This document shows positions 602-7,583 of a stretch of DNA of 7,652 nucleotides, piece by piece (within the stretch, counting starts at the first letter, position 1; every line of letters starts with the position of its first letter). The stretch spans positions 1 to 7,652 of the forward strand of contig JAGLYR010000039.1 of NCBI GenBank assembly GCA_023132135.1. Direction: 5' to 3'. The stretch comes from Candidatus Eiseniibacteriota bacterium (lineage in GTDB: Bacteria; Arandabacterota; Arandabacteria; JAGLYR01). Both the position numbers and the translations under genes were made by a program. A model generated the notes under the pieces. It saw nothing but the letters and a program-made list of their open reading frames with translations. It ran no database searches and had not been told where the DNA came from.

Positions 602-668
602 ACAATATCGGAACTGCCCCAGCCCGATCTTCCAGGATCGGGTTTTCGACCGTTGAACGGAGACTGGA

Positions 669-3278
669 ATGAAGAAAGTTGTCGGTCTGGTCATCGCACT
701 GGCGCTGGTCGCCGCGATTGTCCTCGTCGCCGGAAGGACCACCATCCCTCCGGACCACGCGTTGGTTGTCTGCTCGCGCCTGGGCGGCGAGCCTCGCCTG
801 GCAACGGGGCCGAAACACTGGACCTTCCCTCTCCTCTCGACCCGCCATCTCTATCCCCTGGGTCCCCGGGCCGACACCCTGGCTTTCCGCCACGGGGCCT
901 TCCGGACGGCAGAATCCGAGCCTGTGGGCGTAGACCTGGTCATCCGGTACAACCTCTCCCGAGAGAACCTCCCCCACCTCGATCGCGTCACCGGGGGGGC
1001 ATGGCAGGCGTGCCTACAGTCCGGGATTGCCGACCTCCTGGGGCCACTTCTCCAGCGCAGGACCACGGATGAGGTCTTCCGGACGGGATGCGCCGACGCG
1101 GCGGACGAGCTTCTCCAAACTGTCGGGAACCGGGACAGTCTGGCGCCATACGCGGTGAGCGGATTGGAAATCGCCTCAGTACACCTGGACCCTGAAACCG
1201 AACGCAACCTGACGGAATCCTACGTCCGCCGGAACCCGCCGGAGGTCAGGGTTGTGATCATCGGCGTGGACGGCGCCGATTGGGACATCATCGACCCCAT
1301 GATGCAGCGGGGAGAGCTCCCGAACTTCGCGTCCCTCGTGGAACAAGGCACGAGGGCCAGCCTCGAATCCATCCATCCCATGCTCTCTCCGAGAATCTGG
1401 ACGTCCATCGCCACGGGCAAGTTCCCGGAGGAACACGGCATCACCGATTTTATCATCAAGGATCGATCCACCGGGAGAATGGTGCCCATCACCTCCAACA
1501 TGCGGCGGAGCAAGGCACTCTGGAACATCCTGTCGGATCTGGACCTGCCGGTCGGGTTCGTGGGATGGCTGGCCACGTGGCCGGCAGAGCCAGTCAACGG
1601 GTTCATGGTTTCCGACCGCATGGCATACTACGCGTTCAATCCGGACCGCCCACTCGACGCGTCGCCCCACAAGACCTACCCGGACGAGCTCTTCGAATCG
1701 TTGCGCCCCCTGGTCAAGGACTACAAGGACCTGGGCTACGAGGATGTCCGCCGTTTTCTGAGCATCCAGCGGGATGAATTCGAGCGCCAAGCCGCAAAGG
1801 GATACGATCCGGACGACGCGATTCATAACTTCCGTCTCATCATGGCTACCACCGAGACCTACCGGGACATCGGTCTCCGCCAGATTCGCAAGCCTGCACG
1901 CCTGTTCGGCCTCTACTTTGAGCTGGTCGACGCCGTGAGCCACCTCTTCGTCCGGAACATGCCCCCGCGCCTCAAGGAGGTGTCCGACGAGGACTTCGCC
2001 CGCTTCCGGGATGCCGTTTTCGAAACGTATCGCTACCAGGACGAGATTCTGGGCGAGATCCTGGCCAAGACCGACGATCAGACCATCGTGATGGTGCTTT
2101 CAGACCACGGGTTCCGGACCGGAGCCAATAGGCTTCTGGAGGATCCCATAGGATCGCCGGCGGCCATGATCCGGGTGGGACACGGGGGCCGCGCCGCTCG
2201 TGCCGTTCTGGATCATGCGCCCTACGGTATTCTTCTTGTCCGCGGCCCCGGAATACGCTCCGGGGCCAGAATCGAAACGGCTTCCGTCATGGACATAGCT
2301 CCCACGGTCCTGTATCTCCTGGGCCTGCCCGTAGCACGCGACATGGAAGGGCGAGTGCTGCGCGAAGTGATGGAGCCCGGGATCGCCGCCGGGAAGCCAC
2401 TCCTGAGAATCACCACCTACGAAACCGGAGAACCCGCGTCAGCTGAGGCCCCTATCGCATCGGTGGATGACCAGGCATTGATAGAGAAGCTCGCGGCACT
2501 GGGCTATGTGGACCGGGGGAGCAACAAGAACCCCGCCACCGAAGGACTCAGAATTCTGAGGGAAGGGCATGCCCGGGAGGCCATCCGGCACCTGGAACTG
2601 GCAGTGGAACTGGATCCCGGATCCGCCGGTCTCTGGGCAAACCTGGGCCTCGCCCACCTCCAGGTGGGCGAAACGGCCAAGGCCGAAAACGCTCTCAGAA
2701 AAACACTGGAGATCAAGCCCGATTCCCCCGGCGCCCTGAGCAATCTGGCCATCGCCTTGACGGAAAAGGAGCAGTACGAAGAAGCGGCAAGCGTGCTGGA
2801 ACACGCCGTCCGGCTTGCTCCCGACAACCCGAAGATGCGCGACAATCTGGGTGTCCTCTACGTCCACCTCAACCAACCGGAGGACGCCCGGCGTCAGTTC
2901 GCCAGGGCGGTCGAACTGGCTCCCGCAATGCCTGAACCCTACAACAACCTGGGGGCCGTGGCCCTGAAGCGCAAGGACTACGACGAAGCCAGGGCGCAGT
3001 TCGAAAGAGCGCTGATTCTGTCGCCCGGTCTCCCGCAAGCCCACATGAATCTGGGCCGCCTTGCCCTGGAAACGGGTGAGCCTGCCGAAGCGCTGGCGCA
3101 TCTTGAGCGGGTTCTGGAGATGGACCCCGAGCACGCGGAGGTGCACTACCGGACCGGATTGGCCCACCGCGACCTGGGGGCCATGGAAAAGGCCCGGACT
3201 GCCTGGCGCAGCGCGGCGCAGCTCGACCCAAAAGGCGAGTTCGGTCGCAAGGCTCGGGATCTCTTGTCAAAGGAGTAG
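669..3278 (+). CDS. Membrane-anchored SPFH-like / alkaline-phosphatase-superfamily phosphodiesterase / TPR fusion protein (paralogue 1)
   Basis: The product is 869 aa. The ATG has GGAG at 659-662, 6 bases upstream. MKK plus a hydrophobic run (about 4-21) is an uncleaved-type anchor that should place the rest outside the cytoplasm. Residues about 26-185 read like an SPFH/Band 7 domain: PPDHALVV..RLGG, then GPKHW..P, a GVDLVIRY strand, and late LAPYAVSGLEIASVHLD. Residues about 193-560 are an AlkP-superfamily type I phosphodiesterase/pyrophosphatase domain. D201, D421, H425, D479, H480 and H516 match the metal ligands. S240 (LSPRIWTS..TG..P..HGI) sits where the nucleophile Thr/Ser belongs. A linker ending LAALGYV follows, then one partial and six full TPRs (about 625-856) with PEPYNNLGA-type consensus. 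Gene 2 follows 3 bases after the stop. Seen: motifs and layout. Known: family metal chemistry. Inferred: membrane assembly and partner binding by the TPRs. The substrate cannot be named. Confidence 0.92.
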   Translation: MKKVVGLVIALALVAAIVLVAGRTTIPPDHALVVCSRLGGEPRLATGPKHWTFPLLSTRHLYPLGPRADTLAFRHGAFRTAESEPVGVDLVIRYNLSRENLPHLDRVTGGAWQACLQSGIADLLGPLLQRRTTDEVFRTGCADAADELLQTVGNRDSLAPYAVSGLEIASVHLDPETERNLTESYVRRNPPEVRVVIIGVDGADWDIIDPMMQRGELPNFASLVEQGTRASLESIHPMLSPRIWTSIATGKFPEEHGITDFIIKDRSTGRMVPITSNMRRSKALWNILSDLDLPVGFVGWLATWPAEPVNGFMVSDRMAYYAFNPDRPLDASPHKTYPDELFESLRPLVKDYKDLGYEDVRRFLSIQRDEFERQAAKGYDPDDAIHNFRLIMATTETYRDIGLRQIRKPARLFGLYFELVDAVSHLFVRNMPPRLKEVSDEDFARFRDAVFETYRYQDEILGEILAKTDDQTIVMVLSDHGFRTGANRLLEDPIGSPAAMIRVGHGGRAARAVLDHAPYGILLVRGPGIRSGARIETASVMDIAPTVLYLLGLPVARDMEGRVLREVMEPGIAAGKPLLRITTYETGEPASAEAPIASVDDQALIEKLAALGYVDRGSNKNPATEGLRILREGHAREAIRHLELAVELDPGSAGLWANLGLAHLQVGETAKAENALRKTLEIKPDSPGALSNLAIALTEKEQYEEAASVLEHAVRLAPDNPKMRDNLGVLYVHLNQPEDARRQFARAVELAPAMPEPYNNLGAVALKRKDYDEARAQFERALILSPGLPQAHMNLGRLALETGEPAEALAHLERVLEMDPEHAEVHYRTGLAHRDLGAMEKARTAWRSAAQLDPKGEFGRKARDLLSKE
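3269..3275 (+). promoter_or_regulatory. Strong ribosome binding site that decides a TTG start for gene 2
   Basis: AAAGGAG lies inside the last codons of gene 1, 6 bases before TTG at 3282. This supports the TTG start over any later ATG. It also implies coupled translation, since the gene 1 stop (3276-3278) falls between the site and the start. Confidence 0.8.
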
Positions 3279-3281
3279 CTG

Positions 3282-5846
3282 TTGCGAATCGGCATCCTGA
3301 CTATTGCCCTGGCCGTGGCCGCTCTGGCCATGGTTCTGGGCATCGACCGCGTAGGTGAAGGCGAAGCAGTTGTGGTCCTTTCCCGCTTCGGTGGCTCTTC
3401 GCACGTGCTCCTCGAGGGCACACACTGGACCGCACCTCTAATCCACCGCAAGGGTCGCTATCCCCTCGGACAAAGCTCTCTCTCCGTCTCCATACCCATG
3501 GGCAGGATCACCTCTTCAGAAGGGGAACCCGTGGGACTCGATCTTGTGGTGGAGATTGAACTGGCCCCGCATGCTCTTCCCCCGCTGCACGCCGAACTAG
3601 GATCCGGATTCCGCACCCGGATCACAGAGGAGGTGACAGCGCGGGCCGGGCAGCTCCTGGACGGCTTCCCGCTGAGCGACATCTACCTTCTCCGCTGGAG
3701 TGAAGTCGGAGCGGAAATATCGCAGTCGCTGGCCGATACCCCGCTGGGGAAACTGAGCGGGCTCAGATCCGTGGAGGTCACCAACATCCATGTGGAACAG
3801 GAAGCAAGACGCTCCCTGTTCGCGGAATTGGGAAAGAGCGGCACTTCGCGCGTCGCTATTCTCGGCATCGACGGCGCCGACTGGAATATCATCGAGCCCA
3901 TGTTTCGCCGGGGGGAGCTTCCCCACCTCCGCCGGTTGGTGGACGGCGGCGTCCGGGCGGACCTGGAATCCATCTATCCCCTCCTCTCCCCACTCATCTG
4001 GACCAGCATCGTCACCGGCAAGACCCCCGACAAGCACGGAATCCTGGATTTCTTCGCCGAGGATCCCGCGACAGGAAAACAGGTCCCGGTCACATCCAAC
4101 CTGCGGCGAGTTCAGGCGCTCTGGAACATCCTGTCGGAGGCTGGGATAAACGTTACCTTCGTCGACTGGATGGCATCGTGGCCGGCGGAACCGGTCGAGG
4201 GAGTCATGGTTTCCGACCGTCTGGCCTTTCATGCGTTCGACCCCTCCCCCGAAAACTACGCGGGGAACCGGAAAACCTACCCGGAGGATCTCTGGGGGAG
4301 TCTGGCCCCTCTCGTCGTCCAGGATCGCGACGTCACCTACCGTGAGGTGAAGCGGTTCCTGAAAATCCAGCCTTCGGAATTCGACGCCCACCCGGGCGGG
4401 CGGTATGATCCGAGCGATCCAATCCAGAACTTCCGCCTCATCCACGCCACCACGGAGACCTACCGCCGGGTCGGGCTGAAGTTGCAGAAGCGTCCCGCCC
4501 GTCTGTTCGGGATCTACTTCGAGCTGCTGGACGCCGTGTGCCATCTGTTCATCCGGCACATGCCGCCGGCGATGGAAGGGATTTCCGCAGAGGACGCCAG
4601 GAAATTCGGAGGTGCGGTGGAGGAAATCTATCGATACCAGGATGAGATCCTTGGGGATTTCCTGGCCCAGTGTGACGAGCGAACCACGGTGATTGTTATC
4701 TCCGACCACGGGTTCCGATCGGGTCCGCTGAGGCTCAGAAGCGATTCCCGGATTCACGGGATGGGAGGAGCGGCCGCCGAGTGGCACCGCCTGCACGGCC
4801 TCCTTGTCATGCACGGCCCACACCTGCAGCGCGGCGCTGTCCTGGAGCACGCATCGGTCCTGGACATCACCCCCACGGTTCTCTACATGCTAGGACTTCC
4901 CGTTGCTTCAGACATGGACGGTGTGGTGCTCACCGAAGCTTTTGCCCGGGGCTTCGTGGAGAACAACCCGGTCCTGCGGATCCCTTCCTACGAGTCGGGC
5001 GAGACGAGCGAACCTCAGGCGCCCGTTGCTTCCCCGGATGACACCGCCCTGCGCGAGCGGCTGGCTGCGCTGGGATACGTGGAGAAGGACGGAGCCAACG
5101 TTCACAACAACCTGGCGCAATCGTATCTCGAGAGGGGCGAGTTCGAGAAGGCCCTGGCCGAGTACCGCCGGGCCCTGGAATTCGAGCCCGCCTCCGCCCG
5201 CCTCTGGAGCAACCTGGGTATGGCCTACCTCCGGATGGAAGCCTACGAGGAAGCGGTGGAGCCCCTCAACCGGGCGCTGGAGCTCAAGCCCGATTTCGAG
5301 GCAGCCCTGAGCAACCTGGCTGTTGCTTACACATACCTGGAGAAGCTCGAAGATGCAGCCCGCGTGATGGAACGGGCCATCGATCTGGAACCAGGGCGCG
5401 CCGAGTTCCATGACAACCTGGGCGTAATCTACACGCGTCTCGGGAAGAAGGACAAGGCCCTCGAATGCCTGCGGACCGCGGCTGCTCTGGAACCGAAGTT
5501 CCCCGAACCCTACAACAATCTGGGCGCCATCGCGATGGAAACCGGGGCTCTCCAGGAGGCCCGCGAGAACTTCCGCCGGGCGATGGCCCTGAGCCCTTCC
5601 TTTTTCGATGCCCCATTCAACTTCGGGCTTCTGGAACACACGGCCGGCAACCTGTCCGAGTCCGCGGCATACTTCCGGATGGCCCTGGAGATCCGGCCCC
5701 GCCATCTTGAGGCCCGCTACCGGCTGGGAGAGGTCTACAGCGAGATGGGTGAAGACGACAAGGCCCTGCGAGAGTGGAACACCGTGGTCACCATCGATCC
5801 CGACGGACCCACGGGGCAAAAAGCTGCGGCCAGAATATCAGACTGA
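3282..5846 (+). CDS. Membrane-anchored SPFH-like / alkaline-phosphatase-superfamily phosphodiesterase / TPR fusion protein (paralogue 2)
   Basis: The product is 854 aa with a TTG start (see ribosome site). It is a full-length tandem paralogue of gene 1. The N-terminal anchor (about 3-20) is followed by an HflC-like SPFH segment (about 24-180: VGEGEAVVVLSRFGG, EGTHW..P, GLDLVVEI). The phosphodiesterase domain (about 189-550) keeps D197, S236 as aligned nucleophile, D417, H421, D475, H476 and H502. The conserved insert carries ALWNILS...SWPAEPVEGVMVSDR. After LAALGYV there are seven TPRs (about 605-842). By eye, about 45 of 69 aligned residues match gene 1 across the first catalytic motifs (residues 189-257). 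Only about 26 of 71 match in the SPFH segment (24-94), so the SPFH domains have diverged more. The loop before H502 also differs in length and sequence from gene 1, which may mean different substrates or regulation. Co-transcription with gene 1 is very likely. The substrate is unknown. Confidence 0.92.
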   Translation: MRIGILTIALAVAALAMVLGIDRVGEGEAVVVLSRFGGSSHVLLEGTHWTAPLIHRKGRYPLGQSSLSVSIPMGRITSSEGEPVGLDLVVEIELAPHALPPLHAELGSGFRTRITEEVTARAGQLLDGFPLSDIYLLRWSEVGAEISQSLADTPLGKLSGLRSVEVTNIHVEQEARRSLFAELGKSGTSRVAILGIDGADWNIIEPMFRRGELPHLRRLVDGGVRADLESIYPLLSPLIWTSIVTGKTPDKHGILDFFAEDPATGKQVPVTSNLRRVQALWNILSEAGINVTFVDWMASWPAEPVEGVMVSDRLAFHAFDPSPENYAGNRKTYPEDLWGSLAPLVVQDRDVTYREVKRFLKIQPSEFDAHPGGRYDPSDPIQNFRLIHATTETYRRVGLKLQKRPARLFGIYFELLDAVCHLFIRHMPPAMEGISAEDARKFGGAVEEIYRYQDEILGDFLAQCDERTTVIVISDHGFRSGPLRLRSDSRIHGMGGAAAEWHRLHGLLVMHGPHLQRGAVLEHASVLDITPTVLYMLGLPVASDMDGVVLTEAFARGFVENNPVLRIPSYESGETSEPQAPVASPDDTALRERLAALGYVEKDGANVHNNLAQSYLERGEFEKALAEYRRALEFEPASARLWSNLGMAYLRMEAYEEAVEPLNRALELKPDFEAALSNLAVAYTYLEKLEDAARVMERAIDLEPGRAEFHDNLGVIYTRLGKKDKALECLRTAAALEPKFPEPYNNLGAIAMETGALQEARENFRRAMALSPSFFDAPFNFGLLEHTAGNLSESAAYFRMALEIRPRHLEARYRLGEVYSEMGEDDKALREWNTVVTIDPDGPTGQKAAARISD

Positions 5847-5860
5847 TTAGCGCCCTCGCC

Positions 5861-7516
5861 CTATTCCAGCCGATCCGCGTAGACAACCACCCCATACTTC
5901 TCCCGCAGCCCCGTGATCCACTCCCTCGTGAGTCGATCCCGCTCCACAGGCTCCAGGATCCGGGCTATCTCGGGGTTGGCTTCTTCCAGACTCAACTGCC
6001 GCGGCGGGCGTTTCTCGAGCGGCTCAACAATGCCCCAGTACCCCATGTAGGGAAAAGGTCTGCTGATCTCCCCCACCTGGAGATCGAAAGCAACGTCGTC
6101 CAGCAGCCCCCCCAACCGTCCCCGGTGAACGAAGCCGATGTCCCCGCCCTGCTGTCCGGAAGTGCCGTGGAGCGAGCGGTCCTTCGCCATCCCGGCGAAA
6201 TCGGCTCCTTCCCGGATTGCCCGAGCAACTGAGTCGGCAGCGACTTCCGTCTCAATCACAATCATCCGAAGGTGAACCTCCTCGGGGCTCCGGAAGTCCG
6301 TCTGGTGCTCCAGGTAGTAAGCTTCGAGCATGGCCGGTGTGATTCTCAGCTTCTTCTCAACTTCAACCTTCCGCAGATCGGATTCCAGCGACACTTCCTC
6401 CAGGATCTTCATTCTTTCCCGGAAACCATCCGACGTCTCGAGCCCGCGATGTTTCGCCTCCTCAACCAGGAGGTTGTTGACAGTCTGCTTCCCCACAAAA
6501 CGAGCAACGCTCTCGAAGCCGCTGCTGGGAATGCGGCGCCCGGCAACGGAGCAGTAATCCAGGAACTCACCGACGGTCCACCGACCGCCCTTGAACGAAA
6601 CCAGGATCCGGGATTTCTCCCCATAGCTGAGAAACGGTCTCACGGCATCGACGACACCCTGCCCGTTCGCCTCTTCAACCTTCTCCACAAGAAGCAGGAC
6701 CCCCTCGTCCCTCACCGCCACATCCCAAGGTTGCTCAAGAGCCCCCCGGAACGCTGTCATACTCGCTGTAATCCGCTCCCGACGGAGATTGGCGAAGATG
6801 TCCTTCCACACCGACGCGTAGGAGCCCTGCGAACCGGGACGCTTGCCCATCAGCTTGATGACGTGGAATCCGTACTGGCTCTCGAGCACTCCGCTGACCG
6901 TGCCGACTTCCATCTCTACAACGGCATTACGAATGGGCGGCACCATCTCCAGCTCCCGCCACACCTTCCATCCCAGGTCTCCACCTGTTCCCACCTCCGC
7001 ACCCTTGCCGCGCGTCTTGGAGAGAGCCTCAAAGCTCTCTCCCTTGTCAAGCAGCGCCAGAATTTCCTCGGCTTCGGCCCGGGTTTCGACCATGACGGAC
7101 CAGATCCGGTAGGCAAACCGCCCCATCTCGTACTCATGACGGATCGTTTCCTCCCGGATCTCGACGGTATCCGGACGCCCGTATACGCGATAGAGTTCCT
7201 GGACCAGCATCTTCCTTTTGTTCCGTGCGAGCTTGTCTTCCTCCATGTCGAAGACAAGCCCTCTCTCACGCGCTTCCCGGGCCGCGATCATCCGGTCCAC
7301 GATTCGGTCCAGATGATCGGCCTTCCATTCGTGGGAAGCCGTCTCCGGATTGGCGCGGAATTTGATGGAGTAGCTCAGGTTGAACTCCTCGAGGGTTATG
7401 GTAGAATCCTCCACCTCCGCCACAACTACCCTCGAAGGATCCACCTTGCAGAATCCGTCGTGGCCGCTCCCGAGGATCACCAGAACCACCAAGCAAATCC
7501 AGCCGTGCTTCAACAA
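5861..7516 (-). CDS. Exported SurA/PrsA-like chaperone with two parvulin (PpiC-type) domains
   Basis: The product is 551 aa from the TTG at 7516. An ATG at 7567 would add 17 residues, but its codon lies within a hairpin and lacks a ribosome site. A signal sequence (about 5-18, GWICLVVLVILGSG) directs export. C23 is not in a lipobox, so I do not call a lipoprotein. Layout: a SurA-N-like chaperone segment (VVVAEVEDSTITLEEF, about 30-130), parvulin domain 1 (about 136-226; GGDLGW at 178-183; GFHVIKL at 216-222), a second chaperone-like segment (WTVGEFLDYC, about 313-410), and parvulin domain 2 (about 414-501; GGDIGF at 457-462). Known for the family: folding of exported and outer-membrane proteins and proline isomerization. 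Domain 2 has GYWGIV where the active-site His is expected, and neither domain has the usual early His, so isomerase activity is doubtful. Its stop is 14 bases from the gene 2 stop, with convergent orientation and no obvious shared terminator. Confidence 0.88.
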   Translation of the reverse strand: MLKHGWICLVVLVILGSGHDGFCKVDPSRVVVAEVEDSTITLEEFNLSYSIKFRANPETASHEWKADHLDRIVDRMIAAREARERGLVFDMEEDKLARNKRKMLVQELYRVYGRPDTVEIREETIRHEYEMGRFAYRIWSVMVETRAEAEEILALLDKGESFEALSKTRGKGAEVGTGGDLGWKVWRELEMVPPIRNAVVEMEVGTVSGVLESQYGFHVIKLMGKRPGSQGSYASVWKDIFANLRRERITASMTAFRGALEQPWDVAVRDEGVLLLVEKVEEANGQGVVDAVRPFLSYGEKSRILVSFKGGRWTVGEFLDYCSVAGRRIPSSGFESVARFVGKQTVNNLLVEEAKHRGLETSDGFRERMKILEEVSLESDLRKVEVEKKLRITPAMLEAYYLEHQTDFRSPEEVHLRMIVIETEVAADSVARAIREGADFAGMAKDRSLHGTSGQQGGDIGFVHRGRLGGLLDDVAFDLQVGEISRPFPYMGYWGIVEPLEKRPPRQLSLEEANPEIARILEPVERDRLTREWITGLREKYGVVVYADRLE

Positions 7517-7522
7517 CTCCTG

Positions 7523-7529
7523 CCTCCTT
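7523..7529 (-). promoter_or_regulatory. Strong ribosome binding site for gene 3, favouring a TTG start
   Basis: On the minus strand AAGGAGG (complement of 7523-7529) is 6 bases from in-frame TTG at 7516-7514, followed by a second TTG. The upstream in-frame ATGs (7567, 7537, 7534) have no comparable site. The spacing matches the AAAGGAG-6-TTG of gene 2. Confidence 0.65.
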
Positions 7530-7544
7530 GCCATCATGAAATCA

Positions 7545-7565
7545 GACCGGGGCTGATCCCCGGTC
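7545..7565 (-). terminator. Perfect hairpin after the Ala-anticodon tRNA, possible terminator
   Basis: GACCGGGG and CCCCGGTC form a perfect 8-base GC-rich stem with a 5-base loop. On the minus strand it is followed by only a weak T stretch (TGATTTC). It starts 18 bases after the ACCC at the tRNA 3' end and covers most of the far-upstream ATG of gene 3. It is probably a weak or Rho-independent-like terminator for the tRNA, or a leader hairpin for gene 3. Confidence 0.45.
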
Positions 7566-7583
7566 ATCCGTTATCATCACATG

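Follow-up and report, generated by a model that had tools for sequence, protein, structure and literature searches.

What is the role of a single polypeptide that joins a membrane anchor, an SPFH domain, an AlkP-superfamily phosphodiesterase, and an array of TPRs? An open reading frame with this composition, here called A, lies at 669..3278 on the + strand of the window, by which we mean the whole 7,652-nucleotide stretch of DNA that was analyzed. A encodes 869 amino acids, and a Shine-Dalgarno-like GGAG (659..662, + strand) stands 6 nt 5' of its ATG start. The sequence motifs quoted from this frame in a first-pass annotation are all present in it. What that description of A had missed is a second complete copy, B, and the absence of a coiled coil after the SPFH domain.

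B (3282..5846, + strand) is a tandem paralogue of 854 amino acids with a TTG start, in which Pfam matches repeat the architecture of A; the two proteins are 44% identical over 833 columns. By domain, identity amounts to 57% for the phosphodiesterase, 38% for the TPRs, and 24% for the SPFH domain, which is the part least conserved between the copies. The gap between the genes is 3 nt, and the Shine-Dalgarno sequence AAAGGAG for B (3269..3275, + strand) lies within the last codons of A, at its 3' end. This placement suggests that A and B are translated from one message, and we conclude that they are probably co-transcribed, coupled genes. A SurA/PrsA-like gene with two parvulin domains is convergent with the pair (5861-7567, - strand). 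Genes for tRNA-His and tRNA-Arg lie upstream of the pair on the - strand, and an incomplete tRNA is found at the window end.

The predicted membrane anchor of A is borne out: both structural models place a helix at residues 2-21 (672..731, + strand), with MKK on its N side and a hydropathy peak of 3.03. The SPFH1+SPFH2 domain follows at residues 25-185 (741..1223, + strand). The first-pass annotation had called this segment SPFH-like and had named it as the point on which its reading could be refuted; a Band_7 match, matches to PDB sequences, and a prohibitin/HflC fold all uphold the call. Residues 1-190 of A match Pfam Band_7 (PF01145) with an E-value of 1.4e-8 and 35.4 bits, over profile positions 2-159 of 176. 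The N terminus of B, with its SPFH domain at residues 24-181 (3351..3824, + strand), gives 3.4e-15 and 57.0 bits, so that both copies exceed the curated Pfam cutoff for Band_7 of 23.6 bits. When homologous N termini were scanned singly, 22 of 27 matched Band_7 at E-values up to 0.1. Searched against PDB sequences, a family profile built from 26 homologous N termini matched QmcA (4.7e-11) and HflK (3e-10), and also prohibitins, stomatin, HflC, erlins, and flotillin. Enzyme and TPR matches dominate a fold search with full-length A, and the N terminus was therefore modeled and searched alone. The resulting model of residues 1-190 (pLDDT, 89.4) has an SPFH1+SPFH2 fold beside the membrane anchor, and its top Foldseek matches are prohibitin, HflK/C, erlin, and flotillin (E-values to 1.5e-8). 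VIA-align superposed it on human prohibitin (8rrh; Z, 14.3; rmsd, 4.5; 184 residues) and on HflC in 7vhq (Z, 12.4; rmsd, 4.4; 182 residues). The SPFH identity of the N terminus of A is supported by three methods, namely, Pfam, the family profile, and the fold.

In known SPFH complexes, SPFH2 is followed by the CC1 coiled coil and then by a cap, and the length of CC1 is correlated with how many subunits assemble (PMC12624060). Both the CC1 coiled coil and the C-terminal cap are absent after SPFH2 in the two predicted models of A: a helix of only 14 residues (175-188) precedes the first phosphodiesterase strand at residue 194. Hence, a canonical cage or dome is unlikely for A, though SPFH contacts may still suffice for a ring. 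The oligomeric state that the first-pass annotation proposed is carried over from other SPFH proteins.

The AlkP-superfamily phosphodiesterase that the annotation had described, with its full set of metal ligands, spans residues 191-580 of A (1239..2408, + strand; PF01663, 1.6e-28). Its counterpart in B lies at 3852..5009 on the + strand, the end being approximate (PF01663, 2.6e-30), and carries the same catalytic residues. Seven of these, D201, S240, D421, H425, D479, H480, and H516 in A numbering, are invariant in an alignment of nine homologues, and the set of two-metal ligands and Ser nucleophile is complete in both copies. Type I nucleotide pyrophosphatase/phosphodiesterases share the fold (Z of about 26 for A against ENPP7, ENPP1, and Xac NPP) and the complete metal and nucleophile set, at about 16-22% identity. 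Unlike Xac NPP and ENPP1/7, A has Ser rather than Thr as nucleophile and a conserved family-specific region, WPAEPVNGFMVSDR. In a profile alignment, S240 falls on the nucleophile Thr of Xac NPP. We could name no substrate-specific residues. A and B are thus putative phosphodiesterases or phosphotransferases. The source genome holds a large set of phosphodiesterase-like genes, with 35 PF01663 matches.

About seven TPRs had been anticipated, and the AlphaFold2 model of A contains seven helix pairs at residues 622-852, followed by a capping helix; the whole array covers residues 622-868 (2532..3272, + strand) and matches Pfam TPR_2 with an E-value of 4.2e-42. The array of B (5094..5837, + strand) matches TPR_1 at 1.6e-44 and TPR_2 at 2e-42. 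The Pfam E-values for the domains of A are far beyond chance.

On which side of the membrane do these domains lie? Positive charge (K/R) is greater before the anchor than after it in most of 26 homologues. A lipoprotein-type signal peptide with a lipobox, called by a simple rule that leaves a few calls doubtful, occurs in about 34 of 79 related phosphodiesterases that lack SPFH, which argues that these relatives are largely exported. However, one clade of 12 related phosphodiesterases has no signal peptide, and most of its members are long enough to carry a TPR array; the enzyme domain alone is thus no proof of export. HflK and HflC face the periplasm (PMC2636767). From the charge bias at the anchor and the exported relatives, we favor an HflK/C-like orientation that puts the bulk of A and B in the periplasm, in keeping with the extracytoplasmic location first proposed.

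The first-pass annotation had also suggested surveying the architecture across genomes. All eight genomes examined from the class carry it, some copies being cut at contig ends; at equal stringency, matches in the other 282 sampled genomes span the phosphodiesterase part only. Named records place it in Latescibacterota, Krumholzibacteriia, and Acidobacteria as well. On the phosphodiesterase tree, the SPFH label requires 6 changes, compared to 21.8 when labels are shuffled, and the true count is probably below 6 because two sequences scored as "other" (L013 and L056) are contig-end fragments missing most of the SPFH region. Two fully supported paralogue clades co-occur in three genomes of sister families (G001, G004, and G006), and A and B pair with each other in the tree (support, 99/98). 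Hence, within the class, sets of two copies must have originated on two or more occasions, barring homogenization of A and B by gene conversion. Such recurrent pairs fit alternating hetero-oligomers like HflK/C and PHB1/2 without proving them. In G001, the two copies are not adjacent (C42 and C171). One of the sister-family clades sits directly downstream of tRNA-Thr(CGT), a synteny not seen in the window, and in three of the four genomes tRNA-Phe(GAA) comes just ahead of that tRNA (L120, 8419-8579; L014, 2861-3019; L144, 1992-2312; L146, 1164-1239). Perhaps the reading frame of A is a chance or misassembled in-frame fusion or a gene-calling artifact? We found nothing in favor of this, and the tandem copies, together with the recurrence of one unbroken frame in many independent assemblies from several phyla, rule it out for practical purposes.

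We found no conserved operon around the architecture across phyla. Some neighbors have glycan- or envelope-related roles (GT2, GT4, RmlD, a sugar epimerase, and LptF/LptG), and several serve unrelated housekeeping functions (ruvC/ruvA and iPGM). A gene for iPGM, itself another AlkP-superfamily enzyme, follows on the same strand in Latescibacterota and Krumholzibacteriia (L039, L043, L044, and L050). Two Acidobacteria have the order yebC-ruvC-[SPFH-phosphodiesterase-TPR]-ruvA-ruvB (L047, 1442-7400; L055, 236-6096). The neighborhood links A and B to glycan genes weakly. Since neighbors differ between phyla, gene context was not used as a basis for function; given this mixed, unconserved setting, a phospho-lipid or glycan of the envelope is put forward as no more than the most likely type of substrate.

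SPFH assemblies are scaffolds or cages that act via separate partners such as FtsH. Like A and B, HflC/HflK (SPFH3) and the prohibitins run from an N-terminal transmembrane anchor directly into SPFH1+SPFH2 and come as a paralogue pair. They then continue into a coiled coil and cap and have no enzyme domain, whereas A and B have an AlkP phosphodiesterase and TPRs instead. Close relatives of the enzyme domain are found among lipoprotein-anchored PF01663 proteins of Eisenbacteria and Acidobacteria (e.g., L015, L016, and L080), some of which (e.g., L015) share the C-terminal TPR array; these have a lipobox anchor where A and B have a transmembrane segment and SPFH. Separate canonical hflK/hflC-like genes are also present in the source genome. 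Another SPFH fusion in that genome joins a cation-efflux domain (PF01545) to Band_7 and is followed by two HflC/HflK-like genes (PF01545-Band_7 loci: L127, 5-1423; L148, 840-4471, source genome C118). In the open-access literature, we found no paper that joins SPFH with AlkP/TPR or phosphodiesterase domains and nothing informative on COG3379, and a survey of prokaryotic SPFH proteins mentions neither phosphodiesterase nor TPR (PMC2636767). This agrees with the earlier remark that no function is described for the combination.

How might these domains, in this order, with these active-site residues and in this gene pair, work together? We favor, at about even confidence, a periplasm-facing inner-membrane phosphodiesterase or phosphotransferase that is clustered or placed by SPFH and coupled to a partner by the TPRs. 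A and B would be co-transcribed and anchored in the inner membrane, with their bulk in the periplasm. As in HflC and prohibitin, the N-terminal signal anchor would lead straight into the SPFH domain, which would lie on the membrane and either cluster the enzyme or confine it to a patch of membrane, the likely form being a homo-oligomer or an A/B hetero-oligomer. In each subunit, the coiled-coil wall would be replaced by the AlkP-superfamily enzyme, with its Ser nucleophile and two metal sites. Candidate substrates of the enzyme, at the inner membrane's outer face, are phosphodiesters such as phospholipid head groups and glycans that are lipid linked or phosphorylated. At the other end of the protein, the TPR superhelix would recruit a partner protein.

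Perhaps, instead, SPFH is a mere membrane-lying spacer that has lost the ability to form rings, and A works as a membrane-tethered monomer or dimer in the periplasm, just as the lipoprotein-anchored forms of the phosphodiesterase would? The models lack a coiled coil and cap, the enzyme family uses many anchors (lipobox, multiple transmembrane segments, or none), and SPFH diverges fastest between A and B, as this proposal would have it. However, a complete SPFH1+SPFH2 is kept across several phyla, as the 22 of 27 N termini matching Band_7 attest, which is more than a spacer needs, and paralogue pairs recur; we think a spacer less likely. Alternatively, A and B could form a single hetero-oligomeric ring of alternating subunits, as HflK/HflC or PHB1/2 do, and enclose a chamber of phosphodiesterases and TPR superhelices at the periplasmic face. 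Hetero-oligomeric SPFH complexes solved so far are alternating paralogue pairs (PMC12624060), A and B are tandem and probably coupled, and two-copy sets arose independently in sister families. Yet CC1 and the cap, missing from A, and the separated copies in G001 speak against such a chamber, and we consider it improbable. Clustering or placement of the enzyme by SPFH remains our preferred reading.

The SPFH-phosphodiesterase-TPR architecture recurs in several uncultured, poorly studied phyla and has apparently gone undescribed. It is a speculative proposal, to which we give little credence at present, that it defines a new SPFH subfamily with an enzyme in place of the cage wall: a membrane ring of A and B, a periplasmic rim of phosphodiesterases, and a crown of TPRs. 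If true, the A/B ring would set aside a compartment at the membrane surface for reactions of a phospho-lipid or glycan substrate. With scaffold, catalytic domain, and partner-binding array in one chain, the idea that SPFH proteins organize membrane biochemistry becomes testable on a single enzyme, whether or not such a ring exists.
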